Assembly: GCA_027490755.1 (NCBI GenBank)
Contig: JAIXXL010000009.1
Span: 124,001-188,000, forward strand
Length of the DNA stretch: 64,000 nucleotides
From: Betaproteobacteria bacterium
GTDB lineage: Bacteria; Pseudomonadota; Gammaproteobacteria; Burkholderiales; UBA3065
Reading direction: 5' to 3'
Shown here: positions 11,754 to 50,855 of the stretch, piece by piece
How the letters are laid out: each line of letters starts with the position of its first letter
Numbering within the stretch: the first letter of the stretch is position 1
Made by a program: the position numbers and the translations under genes
Notes under the pieces: generated by a model
Seen by the model: the letters and a program-made list of their open reading frames with translations, nothing else
The model's database searches: none
Told to the model about the DNA's origin: nothing

Positions 11754-13208
11754 ATGACGACCGCACACCGAATCATCGTCGCAGCCGCGCTGGCACTGGC
11801 GCCGGCATTCGCACCCGCCGCACCCGGCAACCTGCCGGACTTCGCCGACCTCGCCGAGAAGCAGGGCCCGAGCGTGGTCAACATCAGCACGACGACGACC
11901 GTCCGCCAGGAGGCGCGTTCGCCGCAGATGCCGAACATCCCCGAGGACGATCCCGCCTTCGAGCTGTTCCGCCGCTTCTTTCCGCCCGGCCCCGGCGGCC
12001 CCAACGGCGGCATGCCCGGCCAACCGCCGCGCGAGCAGGAATCGCACAGCCTGGGTTCTGGTTTCATCATCAGCGGCGACGGCTACATCCTGACCAACGC
12101 GCACGTGGTGGACGGCGCCGACGAGGTCACGGTCAAGTTCTCCGACAAGCGCGAGTTCAAGGCGCGCGTGATCGGTGCCGACAAGCGCACCGACGTCGCC
12201 CTGATCAAGATCGAGGGCCGCAACCTGGCGTCGGTGCAGATGGGCGACCCGGGCAAGCTGCGCGTCGGCGAGTGGGTGGTGGCGATCGGCTCGCCGTTCG
12301 GCTTCGAGAGCTCGGTCACCGCTGGCATCGTCAGCGCCAAGGGCCGCTCGCTGCCGCAGGAGAACTTTGTCCCGTTCATCCAGACCGACGTCGCCATCAA
12401 CCCGGGCAACTCCGGTGGGCCGCTGTTCAACCTGCGCGGCGAGGTGGTCGGCATCAATTCGCAGATCTACAGCCGCACGGGTGGCTTCATGGGCCTGTCG
12501 TTCGCCATCCCGATCGACGTTGCCATGGACATCGCCGAGCAGCTGAAGGCCGGCGGCAAGGTGACGCGTGGCCGCATCGGCGTGGTGATCCAGGAAGTGA
12601 CCAAGGAACTGGCCGAGACCTTCGGCCTGGCCAAGCCTGCTGGCGCGCTGGTCTCGGCGATCGACCCCGAGGGTCCGGCTGCCAAGGCTGGCATCGAGGC
12701 CGGTGACATCATCCTCAAGTTCAACGGCAAGCCGATCACCACCAGCGGCGATCTGCCGCGCACGGTGGCCAGCGTCAAGCCGGGCACGCGCAGCACGCTG
12801 CAGGTGTGGCGCAAGGGCGCGGCACGCGAGCTGGGCATCACCGTCGCCGAACTGGCCGACGATGAGGGCGCGCCGCAACGCGGCCCGCAGCGCAAGCGCA
12901 ACGAGAAGACGCCGCCGAACGTCGGCAAGCTGGGCCTTGGCCTGAGCGAGCTGGGTGGCAGCCAGCGCCGCCAGTTCGACGTCAAGAGCGGTGTGGTGGT
13001 CGAAGAGGTGCTGCAAGGCGGCCTGGCGGCCAAGGCCGGTCTGCGCCGCGGCGACGTGATCCTGCAGGTGAACGAGGAAGAGGTGAAATCGATCGACCAG
13101 TTCAACCAGCTGCTCAGCCAGTACGAGAAGCGCAAGCGCGTCGCGCTGCGTGTGAAGCGCGGTGACGGCACGCTGTTCGTGCCGCTGCAGCTGGATGGCA
13201 GCAACTAG
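11754..13208 (+). CDS. mucD: Do-family periplasmic serine protease (MucD/DegP-like)
   Basis: Periplasmic protease/chaperone for misfolded envelope proteins. A signal peptide (about 1-24) is followed by a trypsin-like domain with the catalytic triad H117 (TNAHVV), D147 (TDVALIK) and S220 (GNSGGPLF). Two PDZ domains follow (about 270-360 and 390-480). The 484-residue length suits MucD. It is the last gene of the sigma-E operon, 49 bp after rseB, and is followed by a strong intrinsic terminator. Confidence 0.95.
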   Translation: MTTAHRIIVAAALALAPAFAPAAPGNLPDFADLAEKQGPSVVNISTTTTVRQEARSPQMPNIPEDDPAFELFRRFFPPGPGGPNGGMPGQPPREQESHSLGSGFIISGDGYILTNAHVVDGADEVTVKFSDKREFKARVIGADKRTDVALIKIEGRNLASVQMGDPGKLRVGEWVVAIGSPFGFESSVTAGIVSAKGRSLPQENFVPFIQTDVAINPGNSGGPLFNLRGEVVGINSQIYSRTGGFMGLSFAIPIDVAMDIAEQLKAGGKVTRGRIGVVIQEVTKELAETFGLAKPAGALVSAIDPEGPAAKAGIEAGDIILKFNGKPITTSGDLPRTVASVKPGTRSTLQVWRKGAARELGITVAELADDEGAPQRGPQRKRNEKTPPNVGKLGLGLSELGGSQRRQFDVKSGVVVEEVLQGGLAAKAGLRRGDVILQVNEEEVKSIDQFNQLLSQYEKRKRVALRVKRGDGTLFVPLQLDGSN

Positions 13209-13234
13209 CCCGCAGGTGTGGCTGCAAGCCAGCG

Positions 13235-13258
13235 GGGGCGCCGTTTGGCGCCCCTTTT
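13235..13258 (+). terminator. Rho-independent terminator after mucD
   Basis: Perfect 8-bp stem GGGGCGCC/GGCGCCCC with loop GTTT, followed directly by TTTT. It lies 26 bp past the mucD stop and closes the sigma-E operon. Confidence 0.9.
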
Positions 13259-13329
13259 CACCCCATCCAAAGCGCGCATAATGTTTATTATGTCAACTGC
13301 CATGCAGACCCACCCTCGGGAAGACCAAC

Positions 13330-13785
13330 ATGCAGAACCCTGACGAACACGTCGACCACCCGGGGCCGGTGCTGCATACCCTGGTCTACTGCAGCCGCGC
13401 TGCGGATGGCCTGGATGCCGAGGCGATCGACCAGATCGTCGCCACAGCCAAACACCACAACCCCAGCTTCGGTATCACCGGGCTATTGGTCTTTGGCAGC
13501 GGCATCTTCTTTCAGTGGCTCGAGGGCCCCCGGGAAAATGTAATCGGCCTGATGCGGATCATTACCGCCGACCCCCGCCACTCCAATGTCGTCCTGCTCA
13601 GCGAGGAAGACGACGTCACCGACCGGATGTTTCCGAACTGGGACATGGAGCTGGTGGAGGCATCGGACATACGGGAGGTTCTGGTGGATGCCGAGCAACA
13701 CGCCACCGACCCGAAGCAGAAACAAACGCTGGCGCAGTTGCTCGAGGAACTGGATACCGGGTCGCTGGGCGCGCTGGTCAACTGA
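13330..13785 (+). CDS. Short BLUF blue-light photoreceptor
   Basis: FAD-binding blue-light sensor made of essentially only a BLUF domain (151 residues). The flavin-network residues are all present: Y20 (LVYCSRA), N44 (HHNPSFGITG), Q62 (FFQWLEG), plus W104 and M106 in FPNWDMEL, the positions that switch in well-studied BLUF domains. DPRH (about 81-84) is also typical. No output domain is fused, so it should act through a partner protein that is not obvious here. It lies alone downstream of the mucD terminator at the edge of an accessory block. A second BLUF protein is at 44.2 kb. Confidence 0.92.
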   Translation: MQNPDEHVDHPGPVLHTLVYCSRAADGLDAEAIDQIVATAKHHNPSFGITGLLVFGSGIFFQWLEGPRENVIGLMRIITADPRHSNVVLLSEEDDVTDRMFPNWDMELVEASDIREVLVDAEQHATDPKQKQTLAQLLEELDTGSLGALVN

Positions 13786-13796
13786 GACGCCGCACT

Positions 13797-14105
13797 CTAG
13801 CCGTCGCAGGGTTCGTGCCGTGCCGTGTCGTGCTGGATGCGCGGAATCGTCCCGCGTGCCTGCGCGTTGAGGCGTGACGTCCAGAGGTCGCGCTGATTCT
13901 GGAGCGCCAGCCAGTGCCCTGGGTTGGTGCCGAGGGCCTCGGACAAGCGCAGGTCCATGTCGGCACTTACTGCTGAATGGCCATTCAGAACTTTGGAGAG
14001 CATCACGCGGCTGATGCCGATGTGCGCAGCAAAGGCAGTGCGTGTAATGCCGAGGTCGTCAAGCCACGCTGCCAGCATTTGCCCCGGAGGTGCGGGATCA
14101 TGCAT
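13797..14105 (-). CDS. Orphan HigA-type antitoxin
   Basis: A 102-residue XRE-family DNA-binding protein of the HigA/VapI type: PGQMLAAWLDDLGITRTAFAAHIGISR...LNGHSAVSADMDLRLSEALGTNPGHWLALQNQRDLW matches the HigA pattern. Such proteins normally follow a HigB toxin gene. Here the toxin is gone and only its first codons remain directly in front (see the next entries). The ATG at 14105 begins right after that stump. It may still repress its own promoter or protect against related HigB toxins, for example the intact one at 16873. That is inference. Confidence 0.85.
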   Translation of the reverse strand: MHDPAPPGQMLAAWLDDLGITRTAFAAHIGISRVMLSKVLNGHSAVSADMDLRLSEALGTNPGHWLALQNQRDLWTSRLNAQARGTIPRIQHDTARHEPCDG

Positions 14106-44247: not shown

Positions 44248-44898
44248 TCAGTGCAGGAGTTCGGAGCCGGAGAGGTCGGGGCCGAGCGGCGAGCGCAGCG
44301 AGGCGAGCACCGCGCGGCACAGTTCGACGTGAGCCTGGTCCAGGCTGCCGCCGGCTGCCGACTCGATCACCGACTCGATCAGCAGCCCAGCCATCTCGTT
44401 ACGCTGACGCGCACCCGCCAGAGCATTGCGCAACTCGATGATGAAGTTGTCTCTGGCGTCGAGTTCCCGCAGCAGCGGGTCCCAGTGCTGCGAGCGGTGG
44501 CCCTGCAACAGGCTCTCGACGGCTGCCGGGTTCTCGCTAAGGAATTCCGGGTTGAAATCGTCGAGCACGAAGTTGTCCAGTTCGGGGACGTCCTTCAGCA
44601 TCTCTTCGCTGAGCCTCTGAAAGCCCATGCTCCAGCCGCCGTAGAAGCGCCGGTGGATGGCTTCGCGGCGCAGAATGCGGAAGTTCTTGTGACGCGGGTC
44701 GCGGCCGATCTTGGCAACCAGCGTGTCGACCGCATCCTCGTCGCCCTCGATGGTCTGCAGAAAAGAACCGTTGCCATGAATCAGCAGCCCGGTCAGGCCC
44801 AGCTCGGGGTTGTTGAGATGACACTGACGCAACAGGTCCAGCAACATCTTGGGCGTCCAGGGCGTGCTTTCCTGGCTGAGATAGGTGATGCGGATCAT
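44248..44898 (-). CDS. BLUF photoreceptor with helical C-terminal domain
   Basis: Blue-light sensor of 216 residues. The BLUF domain (about 1-95) has Y6, N30, Q48, W89 and M91 in place (ITYLSQ, LNNPELGLTG, SFLQTIEG, GGWSMGF). The remaining about 120 residues are helical and unrecognised, unlike the short BLUF protein at 13.3 kb, so this one may have its own output. The ATG at 44898 puts the first beta strand at the N-terminus. It is first in the unit BLUF, DUF4149-like, MpaB-like. Confidence 0.9.
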   Translation of the reverse strand: MIRITYLSQESTPWTPKMLLDLLRQCHLNNPELGLTGLLIHGNGSFLQTIEGDEDAVDTLVAKIGRDPRHKNFRILRREAIHRRFYGGWSMGFQRLSEEMLKDVPELDNFVLDDFNPEFLSENPAAVESLLQGHRSQHWDPLLRELDARDNFIIELRNALAGARQRNEMAGLLIESVIESAAGGSLDQAHVELCRAVLASLRSPLGPDLSGSELLH

Positions 44899-45022
44899 GA
44901 ACACCTCGCTGTGCGAATGCGGCTTCTGTAACATCAACCGGGACGCCCGAACCGTGGATCTCCCGGTCATACGGCAACCGCAATCGCATCAGGTTCCACG
45001 ACTTCCAACCGAGGGCTATGCA

Positions 45023-45449: not shown

Positions 45450-45524
45450 GGGCGGTTAGCTCAGCGGTAGAGCACTGCCTTCACACGGCAGGGGTCACTG
45501 GTTCGATCCCAGTACCGCCCACCA
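45450..45524 (+). tRNA. tRNA-Val (CAC)
   Basis: 75 nt with encoded CCA: acceptor GGGCGGT/ACCGCCC, anticodon loop TTCACAC with CAC, T-loop GTTCGATCC. Its 3' end is repeated at 50781, which marks it as an integration site. Confidence 0.95.
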
Positions 45525-45525
45525 A
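45510..45525 (+). repeat. Left attachment repeat (in tRNA-Val)
   Basis: CAGTACCGCCCACCAA, the last 15 bases of tRNA-Val plus one. The identical 16-mer is at 50781-50796, and the next seven bases also agree at five positions. This is the expected core site of a tRNA-targeting integrase. Confidence 0.75.
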
Positions 45526-45558
45526 TAGAATCAATGATTTAAGAGATCACCTCGGCGT

Positions 45559-45587
45559 AAGTGCCTCAAAAGTGCCTCAATTGAGGC
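45559..45587. repeat. Tandem 11-bp repeats next to the attachment site
   Basis: AAGTGCCTCAA occurs twice back to back (45559-45569 and 45570-45580) and the second runs into a perfect palindrome GCCTCAATTGAGGC (45574-45587). Repeats like this beside a tRNA core site resemble integrase arm-binding sites. Confidence 0.5.
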
Positions 45588-45679
45588 TCAAGAGCTCCCA
45601 AAACGGGGAGGCAGGGTGAATCGCCCCGGGTTCTGTAGACACTTCCTGGCCTCACAATCAGAGGCAGACAGGAGGTGGC

Positions 45680-45958
45680 ATGGGTACGCCGAGGTATACG
45701 GAGGAGTTCAAGGTCGAGGCGGTGCGGCAGGTGCTGGACCGTGGGCATCGGGTGTCGGAGGTGGCGCAGCGCTTGGGTGTCAGTCCGTACAGCCTGTATC
45801 AGTGGATCAAGCGTTGGCGGCTGCCCCAGGCGCAGCGCGAGGTTCAGGTGTCGCAGGCTGACGAGTTGCGTCGGCTGAAGGCCGAGCTCAAGCGAGTGAC
45901 CGGGGAGCGCGACATCCTAAAAAAGGCCGCCGCGTACTTTGCCAAGCAGTCCGGGTGA
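45680..45958 (+). CDS. IS3 transposase OrfA
   Basis: 92 residues: an N-terminal helix-turn-helix (MGTPRYTEEFKVEAVRQVL...RVSEVAQRLGVSPYSLYQWIKRW) that binds the IS ends, and a leucine-zipper-like helix (DELRRLKAELKRVTGERDILKKA). A slippery A-AAA-AAG (45919-45925) near the end lets a -1 frameshift produce the OrfAB fusion transposase. Confidence 0.93.
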   Translation: MGTPRYTEEFKVEAVRQVLDRGHRVSEVAQRLGVSPYSLYQWIKRWRLPQAQREVQVSQADELRRLKAELKRVTGERDILKKAAAYFAKQSG

Positions 45959-46830
45959 AGTACGCGTTTATCGAGCAGGAGTCTGGGCAACACCCGGTGC
46001 GCCGGCTGTGTTCGGTGCTGGGTTTGCACCCGAGTGGTTTCTACGCTTGGCGTATCCAGCCCAAGAGCATCCGTTCACGCGACGACGCGCGTCTGGTGGG
46101 TCTGCTCAAGCAGGCTTGGTTGGAGAGCGGCTGCGTCTACGGCTATCGCAAGCTGATGCTGGACATGCGCGACCTCGGCGAGACCTGTGGCAAGCATCGG
46201 GTTCGCAGGCTGCTCAAGGTCGAAGGCCTGCGCTCGCAGGTCGGCTATGGTCGCCGGCGCGCGAAGTATGGCGGCAAGCCGGCTGTCGTAGCACCGAACC
46301 ACCTGCAGCGACAGTTCACAGCCGATGCGCCCAACCAGTCGTGGGTGACCGACATCACGTACATCCGGACGCACGAGGGCTGGCTGTATCTGGCGGTCGT
46401 CATCGACCTCTGGTCACGTCTGGTGGTCGGCTGGTCTATGGGCCAGCGGATCGATACCCGCCTGGTGCTCGATGCGTTGCTGATGGCGCTTTGGCGGCGC
46501 CGTCCTGACGCGCAAGTGCTACTGCACTCCGGTCAGGGCTGCCAGTACACCGGCCATGAGTGGCAGGCATTCCTGCGAGACCACAACCTGCTCTGCAGCA
46601 TGAGCCGCCGCGGCAACTGTCACGACAACGCCGTCGGCGAGAGCTTCTTCCAGTTGCTCAAGCGCGAGCGCATCCGCCGCCAAATCTACGCCACCCGAGC
46701 AGATGCCCGTGCCGACGTCTTCAACTACATCGAGATGTTCTACAACCCGAAACGGCGCCACTCAACCACGTCCGGCCTGTCGCCGGTACAGTTCGAAGAA
46801 CGTCATTCCCCGAGGTCAGCAGGTGTCTAG
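45955..46830 (+). CDS. IS3 transposase OrfB with substituted catalytic Asp
   Basis: 291 residues with HTH_21 and rve integrase domains. The first Asp (WVTDITYI) and the Glu (CHDNAVGESFF) of the DDE triad are present, but the second is in LHSGQGCQY, where family members have HSDxGSQY. The codon is GGT where GAT is expected. The element is therefore probably unable to transpose itself. GTG start at 45955; normally expressed as OrfAB by -1 frameshifting. Confidence 0.92.
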   Translation: MKYAFIEQESGQHPVRRLCSVLGLHPSGFYAWRIQPKSIRSRDDARLVGLLKQAWLESGCVYGYRKLMLDMRDLGETCGKHRVRRLLKVEGLRSQVGYGRRRAKYGGKPAVVAPNHLQRQFTADAPNQSWVTDITYIRTHEGWLYLAVVIDLWSRLVVGWSMGQRIDTRLVLDALLMALWRRRPDAQVLLHSGQGCQYTGHEWQAFLRDHNLLCSMSRRGNCHDNAVGESFFQLLKRERIRRQIYATRADARADVFNYIEMFYNPKRRHSTTSGLSPVQFEERHSPRSAGV

Positions 46831-46904
46831 AAAACCCGGGGCGATTCAGCCCCTCGGGACTAACGCTGGCGCAGTTAGTTCTAATTAACCATTATAGATA
46901 ACCC

Positions 46905-47855
46905 GTGATTTACTATTTCAGTTACGAAAACAAAAGGCCGACTGGTGGTAACAAAAAGGCCTACCACCACGTTGATATACTTAACAAGCACGGTTTTTCC
47001 GCAAAGGTCCTTCATAGCAGCCCCGGTTTTAGATATCGCGAATTTGATAACCAGACTCAAATAGCTTACACCCCCGGATTAAGCTTGACCGACAAGGATT
47101 TCCTTGTCTTACCTGAAGATTTTCACCAGCCTTTTGAAAATGTTGCCCCGGGAATCAGGAAGGTTATTTTTAACCAGAATAGCTACTATATTTTTCGAAG
47201 AGACGAGCCACCCAAATCAAGCGGGCAAAATGTTCTCAAATTCAATAGTGAAGATATCGTTGCCGCTATATGTGTCTCGGAAAATAATTTACAGTATTTC
47301 CGCTACTGCTTCCCTACGATTCCCTGCTACAGAGTCAGGATCTCCGTAGATTCAATAAAATTCAGGGCGGGTGTGAAATCGAAAGCGATTGCTTTCGCGA
47401 CTCGGAAGCACCCTGACGAGATTTCTCAGGTACTCAGAATCCTGTCCTGTAGGTCTGCGCTTGAAGGTTACGAATTAAGGGTAATCGAGGGAATGACAGA
47501 GGCGGAAGTTGCCATGCAGCTCGGCGGAGCCGCTTTTTATCTGGCGTTTGGTTATCCGGAGGGTTGTCCTCTATCAATCATGGAGGCGATGTCCAGTGGA
47601 TGTATCGTTATTGGATACTCTGGCTTTGGGGGTGATGAACTGTTTCAGAACAAGTACGCCTTCCAAATCCCCGATGCGGACGTCATGGCTTTTGCAAGGG
47701 GCGCAGAGAGTCTCTTGAATGAATACCGAATTGATCCCGAAAAGTACGCTGCATGGCACGCCGGGGCATCAGATTTTATCCGGCTTAAGTATTCTCGCGA
47801 GGTCGAGGAAGATGACGTCATCAGGTGTTGGTCCGACATCGGGGGAATTACCTAA
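46905..47855 (+). CDS. GT4-like glycosyltransferase, AT-rich
   Basis: A 316-residue protein from a GTG start. The C-terminal half has the glycosyltransferase family 4 look (FYLAFGYPEGCPLSIMEAMSSGCIVIGYSGFGGDEL), the nucleotide-sugar binding E-x7-E region of a Rossmann fold; the N-terminal half is divergent. Its codon use is clearly more AT-rich than the rest of the window, a sign of recent transfer. It lies between the IS3 copy and the sulfotransferase fusion and likely served surface-polysaccharide or glycoprotein synthesis in a donor. Confidence 0.75.
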   Translation: MIYYFSYENKRPTGGNKKAYHHVDILNKHGFSAKVLHSSPGFRYREFDNQTQIAYTPGLSLTDKDFLVLPEDFHQPFENVAPGIRKVIFNQNSYYIFRRDEPPKSSGQNVLKFNSEDIVAAICVSENNLQYFRYCFPTIPCYRVRISVDSIKFRAGVKSKAIAFATRKHPDEISQVLRILSCRSALEGYELRVIEGMTEAEVAMQLGGAAFYLAFGYPEGCPLSIMEAMSSGCIVIGYSGFGGDELFQNKYAFQIPDADVMAFARGAESLLNEYRIDPEKYAAWHAGASDFIRLKYSREVEEDDVIRCWSDIGGIT

Positions 47856-47958
47856 GCCCAAGCCGGGAAGGCGTAAAGTTCCGATCCTGCTTAGTGCGTA
47901 GAAAAGGCCTCTGGCGAGTGTTCAACCGGATACTGTTCAACGAAAGATCCCGACAGGT

Positions 47959-50301
47959 ATGTGCCCAGACAGTCGCCCGAACCCGCCACTGATCGTCGCG
48001 GGGATGCACCGCTCGGGGACGTCTCTGACTGCAGGCTGGCTCGCTCAGAGCGGCTTGTCAATGGGCGAAGCCTTGGTTCCGGCCGATCAGGCCAACGTCG
48101 AGGGTTATTTCGAGGACTGCGCGTTCCTGGACCTCAACCGACGCATGCTTGCGGCAAGCGTACCGCTAGACCGAGGCGGCCACCCCGACTGGGGGTGGAC
48201 AGAGGACGGACTAGCCGACACCTGCTCGCTGCGTCCCTTCTTGCAAGAGGCCCAGACCCTCTTGGCTCGGCGGCGCTCGAGCCCGGGACCTTGGGGATGG
48301 AAAGACCCTCGCAACACTGCGCTGCTGGATTTCTGGCAAGCGGCTGCTCCGGATGCCCGCTACCTGCTTGTCTATCGCTACCCGTGGGACGTGTCCGACT
48401 CGATTCACCGCTTGGGTGTTGGCCCAGGCTCGGCAGACCCTCGATATCCAGACCGAATCTGGGCCGCCTACAACAGGCGCTTGCTGGACTTCTTCAGCCG
48501 GAATGCCGAACGCTGCTTGTTGGTAAGTGTCAACCGGTTCGTTCAGAAACCCTCAAGCCTCCTGGAACTACTGCAACGGCGATTCGGCTTGCCACTAGCC
48601 GACCGTCGCGGAGCAAGCTTCCGGAAGACACTGTTCAGGAACACGGGGCAAGGCGACCCGTTGCCGATGCTGCACTCACTCGCCTGGCCGTCATCCTGGC
48701 AAATCTTGAGGTCCTTGGAAGCGGCGGCGGACCTTCCGTCCGGTATCGATCTGTCTATCGAATCGTTCAGCCCTCGCCTGCTGCACAAACCCGAATCTGC
48801 CCCAAGATTCAGCATCGTGACACCCGTGCATGATGACGGCGTCTATCTGCCAGAAGCGATCGCCAGCGCCGAGAGAGGCGCCACAAAGGACACAGAGTTG
48901 ATTATTGTCGACGATGGGTCGAGCGAGGCGCTGACGATGGCATTGCTCGATCGACTGCGCACGGTTGGCTATCGGGTGATGCGCCGGCCACCAAAGGGTC
49001 TTTCTGCCGCGCGCAACGCGGCGATCGCGGAGTCGAGGGCCCCCTACATCCTCCCCCTCGACGCCGACAACCGGATAGAGCCTGACTACTTGTCGGCCGC
49101 GGGCGAAGTACTGGATCGCCAACCCCTGATCGGGGTGGTCTACGGTCATCGCCGCGAGTTCGGCCTTCGAAACGGCATCGTCCAGGTCCCCGAGCACGAC
49201 GTGAGTGCCATGATCAGAGTCAACACTATCGACGCTTGCGCCGTATTCCGAAAGACTGTCTGGACCGACGCGGGAGGCTATGACGAATCGCTCTTTGGAT
49301 TCGAAGACTGGGACTTGTGGCTGTCGGCCGCCAGGGCCGGTTGGCAGTTTCATCACCTCGGGCGGCCCATGTTCGACTACCGAGTCCGACCGAACAGCCT
49401 CGCGCAGAATATCATCGCATCGGGCAAGGGCGAGCGCCTGTCGCGGCGCATCCAAGTCAAGCAGAGCACGCTACCAAGAGTAAGGCGGGAGGTCCCGGGC
49501 GATTCAACGAGCAGCAGCGGGAGAGCCCCTCCAGGAGTTCCGCACTTCCTGATCATCGGGGCCATGAAGGGGGGCACTACCTCACTCATGGATGCCCTGG
49601 TCTCGCACCCCCGGGCTGTCGCGCCAGCCCGCAAGGAAATCCACTACTTCGACAACAACTACGACCTCGGCGTCCAGTGGTACCTTGGACAATTGGGCTT
49701 CAAACCAGACTTGGCAGGCATTTACGGCGAGGCCTCGCCGTACTATCTCTTTCACCCTGGCGTCCCAGGAAGGGTTGCCCAGACCTGCCCCCGAGTCCGG
49801 GTGATCGTCCTCTTGAGGGACCCAGTAGCCCGCGCGATCTCGCACTACCATCACGCTTGCCGGCTGGGGGTAGAGCATCTCGGGCTCGGGCAGGCTTTGG
49901 TCGCAGAAACGGCCAGACTCAACGGCAGTTTCGAGGAGTTGTATCGCGGACTCGCGCGCGCGAATGAACATCACCAGGCACACAGCTACATCAACCGCGG
50001 AAATTATCTGCAGCAGATCAAAATGTGGCTCAAGCATGTCCCCGCCAACCAACTCTTGGTTATCCAGAGCGAAAAGTTGTTCCGCCAACCAGTTATCGAA
50101 TTGGCCAGGGTGATGAGTTTCCTCGAACTTGACGGGCAGCCGCCTACATCATTTGTGCGTCTCAACGCCGGGAGTTACCCTGAAGCCCCGAACGGTATCG
50201 TCAAGACGCTGAAGGCGCTCTTTAAGGAGCCCAACCTCGCGCTCGCGGAGTATCTCAAGAATCAGTTTGGCGAATCGCTCGATCTGTCGCTATGGTCTTG
50301 A
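47959..50301 (+). CDS. Sulfotransferase-glycosyltransferase-sulfotransferase fusion
   Basis: A 780-residue protein with three catalytic units in one chain. Residues about 1-270 are a sulfotransferase-like domain with a PAPS 5'-phosphosulfate loop GMHRSGTSL and a 3'-phosphate region VYRYPWDVSDS. Residues about 280-500 are a family 2 glycosyltransferase (SIVTPVHDDG, VDDGSS, LPLDADNRI, FGFEDWDLWL with the catalytic Asp region). Residues about 515-780 are a second sulfotransferase with GAMKGGTTSL (about 534-543) and LLRDPVARAISHYHH (about 617-631). It should build and sulfate a glycan, using PAPS or a related donor. ATG at 47959; GC content is closer to the chromosome than its neighbour. Confidence 0.85.
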   Translation: MCPDSRPNPPLIVAGMHRSGTSLTAGWLAQSGLSMGEALVPADQANVEGYFEDCAFLDLNRRMLAASVPLDRGGHPDWGWTEDGLADTCSLRPFLQEAQTLLARRRSSPGPWGWKDPRNTALLDFWQAAAPDARYLLVYRYPWDVSDSIHRLGVGPGSADPRYPDRIWAAYNRRLLDFFSRNAERCLLVSVNRFVQKPSSLLELLQRRFGLPLADRRGASFRKTLFRNTGQGDPLPMLHSLAWPSSWQILRSLEAAADLPSGIDLSIESFSPRLLHKPESAPRFSIVTPVHDDGVYLPEAIASAERGATKDTELIIVDDGSSEALTMALLDRLRTVGYRVMRRPPKGLSAARNAAIAESRAPYILPLDADNRIEPDYLSAAGEVLDRQPLIGVVYGHRREFGLRNGIVQVPEHDVSAMIRVNTIDACAVFRKTVWTDAGGYDESLFGFEDWDLWLSAARAGWQFHHLGRPMFDYRVRPNSLAQNIIASGKGERLSRRIQVKQSTLPRVRREVPGDSTSSSGRAPPGVPHFLIIGAMKGGTTSLMDALVSHPRAVAPARKEIHYFDNNYDLGVQWYLGQLGFKPDLAGIYGEASPYYLFHPGVPGRVAQTCPRVRVIVLLRDPVARAISHYHHACRLGVEHLGLGQALVAETARLNGSFEELYRGLARANEHHQAHSYINRGNYLQQIKMWLKHVPANQLLVIQSEKLFRQPVIELARVMSFLELDGQPPTSFVRLNAGSYPEAPNGIVKTLKALFKEPNLALAEYLKNQFGESLDLSLWS

Positions 50302-50329
50302 AAAGAGAGTGCCAAAAGATGCGCGTCGC

Positions 50330-50416
50330 CTACGCTAACGTCCTTCTGCCCTGAATGGTCTCCGGCACCGACGCCGACTTCCTCCGAGCCATCCAGCGCT
50401 TGATCTCTTCGCCCAT
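50330..50416 (-). pseudogene. Remnant of an insertion-sequence ORF N-terminus
   Basis: Read on the minus strand these codons give MGEEIKRWMARRKSASVPETIQG and then stop at a TAG. The pattern EEIKRW-x-ARRKSA-x-V-x-E-x-IQG is the start of short helix-turn-helix proteins carried by some insertion sequences, from memory. Only about 26 codons survive. It adds to the evidence that this segment is a decayed mobile region. Confidence 0.45.
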
Positions 50417-50780
50417 CCACTGACTACGCCGTACGCTGTCCTTCCGAAGGGCAACTCAGCGTCGTCCTGTTATCGGACGACCCGCGTTTCCCGCTCAACA
50501 AAAGCAAACGGCCCGCACACTGGCGAGGTAGAGGGCGCGGACAGCCCGAGTCGCCTAGCGTGGGATAAGGTCCATAACTCAGCATCATCGTTCACTCCGA
50601 ACACGCGAACCCGTTTGCCGGGCTATTTGCGCGCTCGAGGTAAAGATGCGGGGTTCCAGAACCCCGGTGGCATCTACCGCTGGTCCATGCAGGCGATATC
50701 AAGCAAAAGCTGGGGTAACTTTCAGGGTGGCTGCGCGGCATGCACTACCGAAACAAAGGCAACACCGAGCGATTGCGGGG
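50417..50780. other. Non-coding remnant region
   Basis: Between the IS remnant and the right attachment repeat I see no gene with family character or a good ribosome site. A 77-codon open frame starting at 50615 on the plus strand has no recognisable content and crosses the att repeat. The stretch is probably degraded mobile DNA. Confidence 0.5.
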
Positions 50781-50796
50781 CAGTACCGCCCACCAA
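50781..50796 (+). repeat. Right attachment repeat
   Basis: CAGTACCGCCCACCAA, identical to the 3' end of tRNA-Val at 45510-45525. It is an orphan tRNA fragment with no tRNA body, as left behind when an element integrates at a tRNA 3' end. Confidence 0.75.
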
Positions 50797-50855
50797 CAGG
50801 ATCCACCTGCCAGCCCGCACGCTCGCCGACCTTCGGCCAGCATCCTGACAGCGCT

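Follow-up and report, generated by a model that had tools for sequence, protein, structure and literature searches.

Can a single polypeptide both extend a glycan and sulfate it? The question is raised by a 64,000-nucleotide stretch of a Betaproteobacteria bacterium genome (hereafter the window), in which a sequence-only reading had recognized one continuous frame of 780 codons holding two sulfotransferase-type units on either side of a family 2 glycosyltransferase, and had proposed sugar addition and sulfation at two positions by one enzyme. Control of the sulfation pattern on bacterial polysaccharides is little known, and experimentally demonstrated sulfated polysaccharides of bacteria are few.

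Domain layout and catalytic residues

The encoded protein, P0001, is read from an ATG-to-TGA frame of 780 aa that contains no internal stop and occupies window positions 47959-50301 (+), exactly where the sequence-only reading had placed it. Domain search likewise confirms the two sulfotransferase units (STN and STC) flanking the glycosyltransferase (GT2), arranged as follows.

47959..50301 (+): fused protein STN-GT2-STC (P0001), 780 aa
47986..48603 (+): STN, N-terminal sulfotransferase (Sulfotransfer_3), residues 10-215, from Pfam and conservation
48001-48024 (+): STN 5'-PSB, GMHRSGTS
48373-48402 (+): STN 3'-PB region, YRYPWDVSDS
48811..49398 (+): GT2 glycosyltransferase domain, about residues 285-480, from Pfam, conservation and a GT-A fold match
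48907-48924, 49060-49068 and 49303-49308 (+): GT2 motifs VDDGSS, DAD and ED
49399..49536 (+): inter-domain linker, about residues 481-526, mostly with little homologue support, its end Ser/Gly/Pro-rich
49540..50133 (+): STC, C-terminal sulfotransferase (Sulfotransfer_1, HS 3-OST/NDST type), residues 528-725
49564-49584, 49633-49653 and 49810-49842 (+): STC motifs MKGGTTS, KEIHYFD and LLRDPVARAIS

All three Pfam domains exceed their curated cut-offs, far beyond chance. Sulfotransfer_3 (PF13469) reaches 78.9 bits against a cut-off of 27 (E 8.6e-22), a whole-protein score that takes in a second stretch elsewhere in P0001, with its best stretch at residues 10-215. Glycos_transf_2 matches residues 285-408 (E 3.2e-19) and Sulfotransfer_1 residues 528-725 (E 3.4e-16). 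The middle of the chain also resembles NCBIfam models of GT2 enzymes, none of which reaches its cut-off. By sequence search, the nearest solved structure to STC is heparan sulfate 3-O-sulfotransferase 1 (3uan, E 6.2e-23) and that to the GT2 part is chondroitin polymerase (E 1e-13). STN is more remote from solved structures: a profile built from ten homologues aligns with the CurM sulfotransferase (E 3.6e-6), and does so only across its positions 119-212.

The full-length structural model is good for GT2, fair to rough for STN and below 50 nearly throughout STC; an STC-only prediction from two sequences gave a mean pLDDT of 46. In a fold search, the predicted model matches GT-A enzymes, including 6p61, K4 chondroitin polymerase and SpsA, and the best 50 matches listed are glycosyltransferases. 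As guides to the donor sugar of GT2, the nearest PDB entries (chondroitin polymerase, 6p61, WrtF and SpsA) were considered and set aside, being too distant to name one.

Conservation was assessed on sets of distinct tblastn matches from the collected loci (E <= 1e-25, >=70% domain coverage), excluding anything below these limits as well as near-copies of P0001 (>90% identity); PAPS-fold features follow their description in excerpts of PMC11625862. In STN, the loop GMHRSGTS (residues 15-22), R140 and S148 are invariant in 19/19 homologues. GT2 carries VDDGSS (317-322), DAD (368-370) and ED (449-450), with D319, D368, D370, E449 and D450 invariant in 37/37 homologues; the ED motif supplies an acidic residue as general base. 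STC contains MKGGTTS (536-542), R620 and S628, and among its 28 homologues T540, R620 and S628 are invariant, K537 occurs in 27 and E560 in 26. The PAPS loops and 3'-phosphate motifs noticed earlier in both sulfotransferases, together with the VDDGSS and DxD motifs of the glycosyltransferase, are thus present and conserved. At three columns that are invariant in the homologues P0001 itself differs, namely N119 (T in 19/19), A121 (L in 19/19) and P345 (N in 37/37), and these substitutions may weaken a domain.

The match of STC to heparan sulfate 3-O-sulfotransferases (3uan, 1zrh, 1vkj) allows a residue-level comparison. In 3-OST-3, whose catalytic base is E184, mutants of K162, R166, E184, H186, D189 and K215 retain <1% activity (excerpts of PMC8341778). 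Alignments place K537, E560, H562 and D565 of STC opposite K162, E184, H186 and D189, so that the lysine, the catalytic glutamate, the histidine and the aspartate are kept, whereas R166 and K215 correspond to T541 and A592, leaving four of the six mapped residues. The two differing positions are T and A/I in 8/8 aligned bacterial STC rows, which argues that STC is a relative of 3-OST enzymes and not itself a 3-OST. By alignment, STC appears to retain the PAPS-loop lysine and the catalytic base without the 3-OST acceptor site, and the 3-OH of heparan glucosamine is an unlikely acceptor.

A tRNA-associated island carrying the gene

The frame was re-found in its own genome (G000), a 2.06 Mb draft of 49 contigs that is 79% complete, on a contig of 253,983 bases and distant from the contig ends. 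G+C at third codon positions (GC3) is 0.72 in STN, 0.73 in GT2, 0.72 in the linker and 0.72 in STC, and this level course along the chain makes a join of two molecules unlikely. By the same measure, five further frames of the window lie at 0.81-0.92 and the upstream GT4 gene at 0.51; because its GC3 differs from that of the host frames, P0001 appears to have been acquired. Its surroundings comprise the following elements.

45450..45524 (+): tRNA-Val (CAC), likely the insertion site of the island
45614..46851 (+): IS3-family element bounded by imperfect terminal inverted repeats of 40 bp; its transposase frame is 45955-46830
46905..47855 (+): low-G+C gene (GC3 0.51) for a GT4-type glycosyltransferase, upstream of P0001 and probably a separate acquisition
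50781..50803 (+): second copy, in direct orientation, of the 3' end of tRNA-Val and the bases after it (21/23), likely the other border of the island

As in a tRNA-borne island, a tRNA gene borders the segment on one side and a direct repeat of that gene's 3' end on the other side; between them lie the IS3 element, the low-G+C GT4 gene and P0001. The transposase identified on 45524-50803 is that of the IS3 element. In sister genome G003, this tRNA is represented by a 3' fragment of 46 bases and not by a whole gene, 386 bases before sequence homologous to the window from 51494 onward; this fragment and the downstream homology suggest that tRNA-Val is an insertion site in the genus. In G004 the tRNA is whole, and the sequence that follows is unlike the downstream side of the window except for a tRNA-like stretch. 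On the island no gene was recognized for an exporter, a polymerase or sugar nucleotides, nor, beside the sulfotransferases, any exporter gene of the kind found in xss-like Wzx/Wzy or ABC clusters. Wzt_C was not found in the 79%-complete genome. Just upstream of tRNA-Val, at 44248-44970 (-), lies a gene for a BLUF blue-light sensor.

Relatives and the cyanobacterial cassette

Exact peptide seeds, run against 84,980 species genomes, returned 44 stretches, 31 of which encode a relative; none of these 31 is a chain with all three domains. Five of the relatives, two from Acidobacteria and three from cyanobacteria, span most of residues 3-520 at 39-45%. Genome surveys, whose counts include the centre genomes themselves and whose genome sets partly overlap, gave matches in 46/60 relatives (E 1e-3), 19/369 genomes of the class (1e-22), 50/244 of the cyanobacterial phylum, 12/347 of the acidobacterial phylum and 2/398 of its own phylum (each 1e-30). 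The large surveys scored the best 2-4 candidates per genome, among which a three-domain chain should rank first, and no genome survey yielded a second three-domain chain besides P0001. STN-GT2 fusions recur among the relatives, and of the chains found P0001 alone has all three domains. Its parts belong to known families and to a recurrent cassette, and their fusion was not met elsewhere in the surveys. No single chain of sulfotransferase, glycosyltransferase and sulfotransferase was found described in the open-licence literature.

Phages and plasmids were considered as a source and rejected. Partial matches occur in 300 plasmid records, in none of which a single place spans 80% of the query, and in 2 phage records, again over parts only; a scan of viral contigs found no relative.

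The closest counterparts are fusions from Acidobacteria and gene clusters from cyanobacteria. Four acidobacterial loci (L008, from a Blastocatellia MAG; L009, from a gp4 MAG; L138; and L139) encode STN and GT2 fused in all four cases, comprising the same two N-terminal domains as P0001 in the same order and sharing 43-47% identity with it over about residues 3-507. Unlike P0001, none of these proteins was found to carry an STC domain, and the stretches around the four gave no STC match either; L138 has a GT4 further on, and L008 a tail without a Pfam match.

In cyanobacteria, 13 STN loci were compared (L088-L092, L119-L124, L011 and L012), with fused and adjacent genes told apart from the DNA and with L012, which runs off its contig end, judged from the seed-scan and match data. 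STN and GT2 are fused or adjacent in ten of them (all except L119, L123 and L124), and seven of the 13 (L088, L089, L090, L119, L120, L121 and L124) also have an STC homologue in their cluster, directly after STN in L119; the STN match of L124 is weaker (36%). Homologues of all three domains, at 40-48% identity, occur close together in G468, G480, Laspinema, Oscillatoria and Phormidium. G468 and G480 have STN, GT2 and STC adjacent in the order of P0001. The other three have two further genes between GT2 and STC, and in these a stop codon and 12 bases separate STN from GT2 in the same frame. In L120 and L121, the two loci with the fusion's order, the genes are permease, Wzt-type gene, STN, GT2 and STC with nothing between (Pfam domains from L120). 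Independent cases of the cassette are fewer than these counts, because the Laspinema, Oscillatoria and Phormidium loci are near-copies of one another, as are L120 and L121. An ABC-2 permease (Wzm) and a Wzt protein with Wzt_C are present in the L088 and L120 clusters (Pfam), the former also including methyltransferases, a double GT2 and a GT4. The cyanobacterial cassette thus consists of separate genes beside Wzm/Wzt, whereas P0001 is one chain without an adjoining exporter.

The GT2 tree groups P0001 with the four acidobacterial fusions (SH-aLRT 99), and the STN tree also places it with them (90/85, short of the tool's star mark); the STC tree gives no resolved origin for the C-terminal part. 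The simplest history would be the joining of an STC gene to an STN-GT2 fusion of the kind seen in Acidobacteria, in the order that some cyanobacteria have as separate genes.

Two cyanobacterial chains of 1345 and 1656 aa, L011:2165-6202 (+) and L122:4486-9456 (-), carry STN followed by three GT2 matches and are a different extension of the STN-GT2 module.

Proposed function, alternatives and donor supply

Homologues of the parts of P0001 cluster in cyanobacterial glycan-export loci, two of them in the fusion's order, and this ties the protein to sulfated-glycan synthesis. We consider P0001 to be probably a trifunctional, likely cytoplasmic enzyme of sulfated cell-surface glycan synthesis, island-borne and with two PAPS sulfotransferases flanking its glycosyltransferase, an assignment that draws on its domains and gene neighborhoods. 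The central GT2 would use a nucleotide sugar to extend a growing glycan, probably lipid-linked, by one sugar on the cytoplasmic side, and STN and STC, from two families, would each transfer sulfate from PAPS onto that glycan. Fusion would couple sugar addition and sulfation physically, raising the local substrate concentration and tying sulfation to elongation. The idea of both reactions in one enzyme thus stands in part: the single chain, the kept motifs and the link to glycan clusters favor it, while STC is without two residues critical to 3-OST activity. The two sulfates may, but need not, both go on the newly added sugar or at two positions of one sugar.

Comparable partnerships are known from separate genes. 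The synechan cluster xss of Synechocystis 6803 combines, like P0001, two sulfotransferase subfamilies with glycosyltransferases for one exported polysaccharide, which carries about two sulfates per repeat; unlike P0001, it comprises separate genes with Wzx/Wzy export, and XssA and XssE are likened to P0001 by description (excerpts of PMC8205485). Likewise by description, the wps-1 cluster of Actinoplanes missouriensis pairs a heparan-sulfate-type WpsH with WpsB of another family, annotated as a Gal/GlcNAc/GalNAc sulfotransferase, but again in separate genes and of Wzx/Wzy type (excerpts of PMC13390465). Excerpts of both papers call bacterial sulfated polysaccharides exclusive to cyanobacteria (PMC8205485, PMC13390465), a claim that marine Vibrio and Cobetia, with their sulfated capsules, contradict; alongside sulfotransferases, genes for PAPS synthesis occur in the capsule clusters of Vibrio sp. 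KMM 8419 and Cobetia marina (excerpts of PMC11641403 and PMC11766843). The fused chain and its split cyanobacterial counterparts suggest three enzymes acting on one acceptor. More tentatively, P0001 may represent a one-chain sulfoglycan unit outside cyanobacteria, whose two sulfotransferases of different families would act on the product before it is passed on, keeping sulfation in a stoichiometric ratio to elongation, and which would spread as a compact cassette on tRNA islands. Being one chain, it lends itself to a direct test, on one recombinant protein, of whether elongation and sulfation are coupled, and it could serve as a compact tool for defined sulfated glycans.

Other explanations bear on whether the gene is real, whether all of it works and what it acts on. 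An assembly error in the draft, linking an STN-GT2 gene to an STC gene that came from another molecule, would fit the 49-contig state of the source genome, the sparse homologue support of linker 481-526 and the failure of the surveys to find the full chain again. The reading frame, however, is maintained through the junction of a gene lying far from the ends of a 254 kb contig, GC3 is level from STN to STC, and the fusion's domain order is the gene order in two cyanobacteria. None of these features gives a sign of the frameshift or assembly join that the sequence-only reading had allowed for, and we rejected such an artefact as the main reading, regarding it as very improbable. It is also unlikely that only part of the chain is active, as in a drifting island gene with one sulfotransferase or the glycosyltransferase reduced to binding or scaffolding. 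The departures at N119, A121 and P345, the small island with an IS element and no full glycan operon, and the uniqueness of the three-domain chain in the surveys would fit such a gene, yet 780 codons have stayed open at level codon-position G+C, and the PAPS loop, 3'-phosphate site, DxD and ED residues and STC glutamate are all present.

The nature of the acceptor is a separate matter. A glycolipid, glycoprotein or small glycoside, comparable to the substrates of Nod-factor and mycobacterial sulfolipid enzymes, would account for the lack of an identified exporter on the island and of Wzt_C in G000, and rhizobia and mycobacteria are known to sulfate lipo-oligosaccharides (excerpts of PMC8205485). 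Against this, homologues of the parts lie in Wzm/Wzt clusters, that of L088 with several glycosyltransferases and methyltransferases, and contig C48 of G000 carries a cluster with several glycosyltransferase and sulfotransferase genes; an acceptor other than an exported polysaccharide therefore seems rather doubtful.

An enzyme of sulfated-glycan synthesis with two sulfotransferases would require PAPS. The sequence-only reading had brought the cys genes of the window into donor supply, a link that now appears weak, because P0001 lies on a separate tRNA island with a different codon composition. Its assignment of CysH (361-1224, -) agrees with the CC...GCxxC cysteine motifs present there, which we take to denote the APS-reductase type. 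The search for an APS kinase (cysC, PF01583) that it had proposed gave no match in G000 (79% complete); among the four sister genomes, it was found in none of G001, G002 and G003 and once in G004. G004 is also the only sister genome with sulfotransferase-domain matches to P0001, although four genomes are too small a sample to test this. With several sulfotransferase genes present and the assembly at 79% completeness, an APS kinase of G000 likely lies in the missing part.

The C48 cluster is a second sulfotransferase-rich cluster of G000, in which a 706-aa GT4 protein overlaps an STN-like match. It also encodes a 1876-aa chain, L007:4674-10304 (-), with Sulfotransfer_3 (25.8 bits, just under the cut-off of 27), WbsX, GT2 and GT4. 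Nearby are three further sulfotransferase-type genes, L006:9136-9867 (-), L006:9864-10664 (-) and L007:119-991 (+), whose Pfam families differ (Sulfotransfer_2, a weak Sulfotransfer_3 below cut-off and Stf0). Sister genome G004 has two adjacent sulfotransferase-glycosyltransferase fusions, L094:10109-11983 and 11993-14098 (+), one of Sulfotransfer_3 with a weak GT2 and the other of Sulfotransfer_3 with GT4. Joining of sulfotransferases and glycosyltransferases thus occurs elsewhere in the source genome and in its sister.
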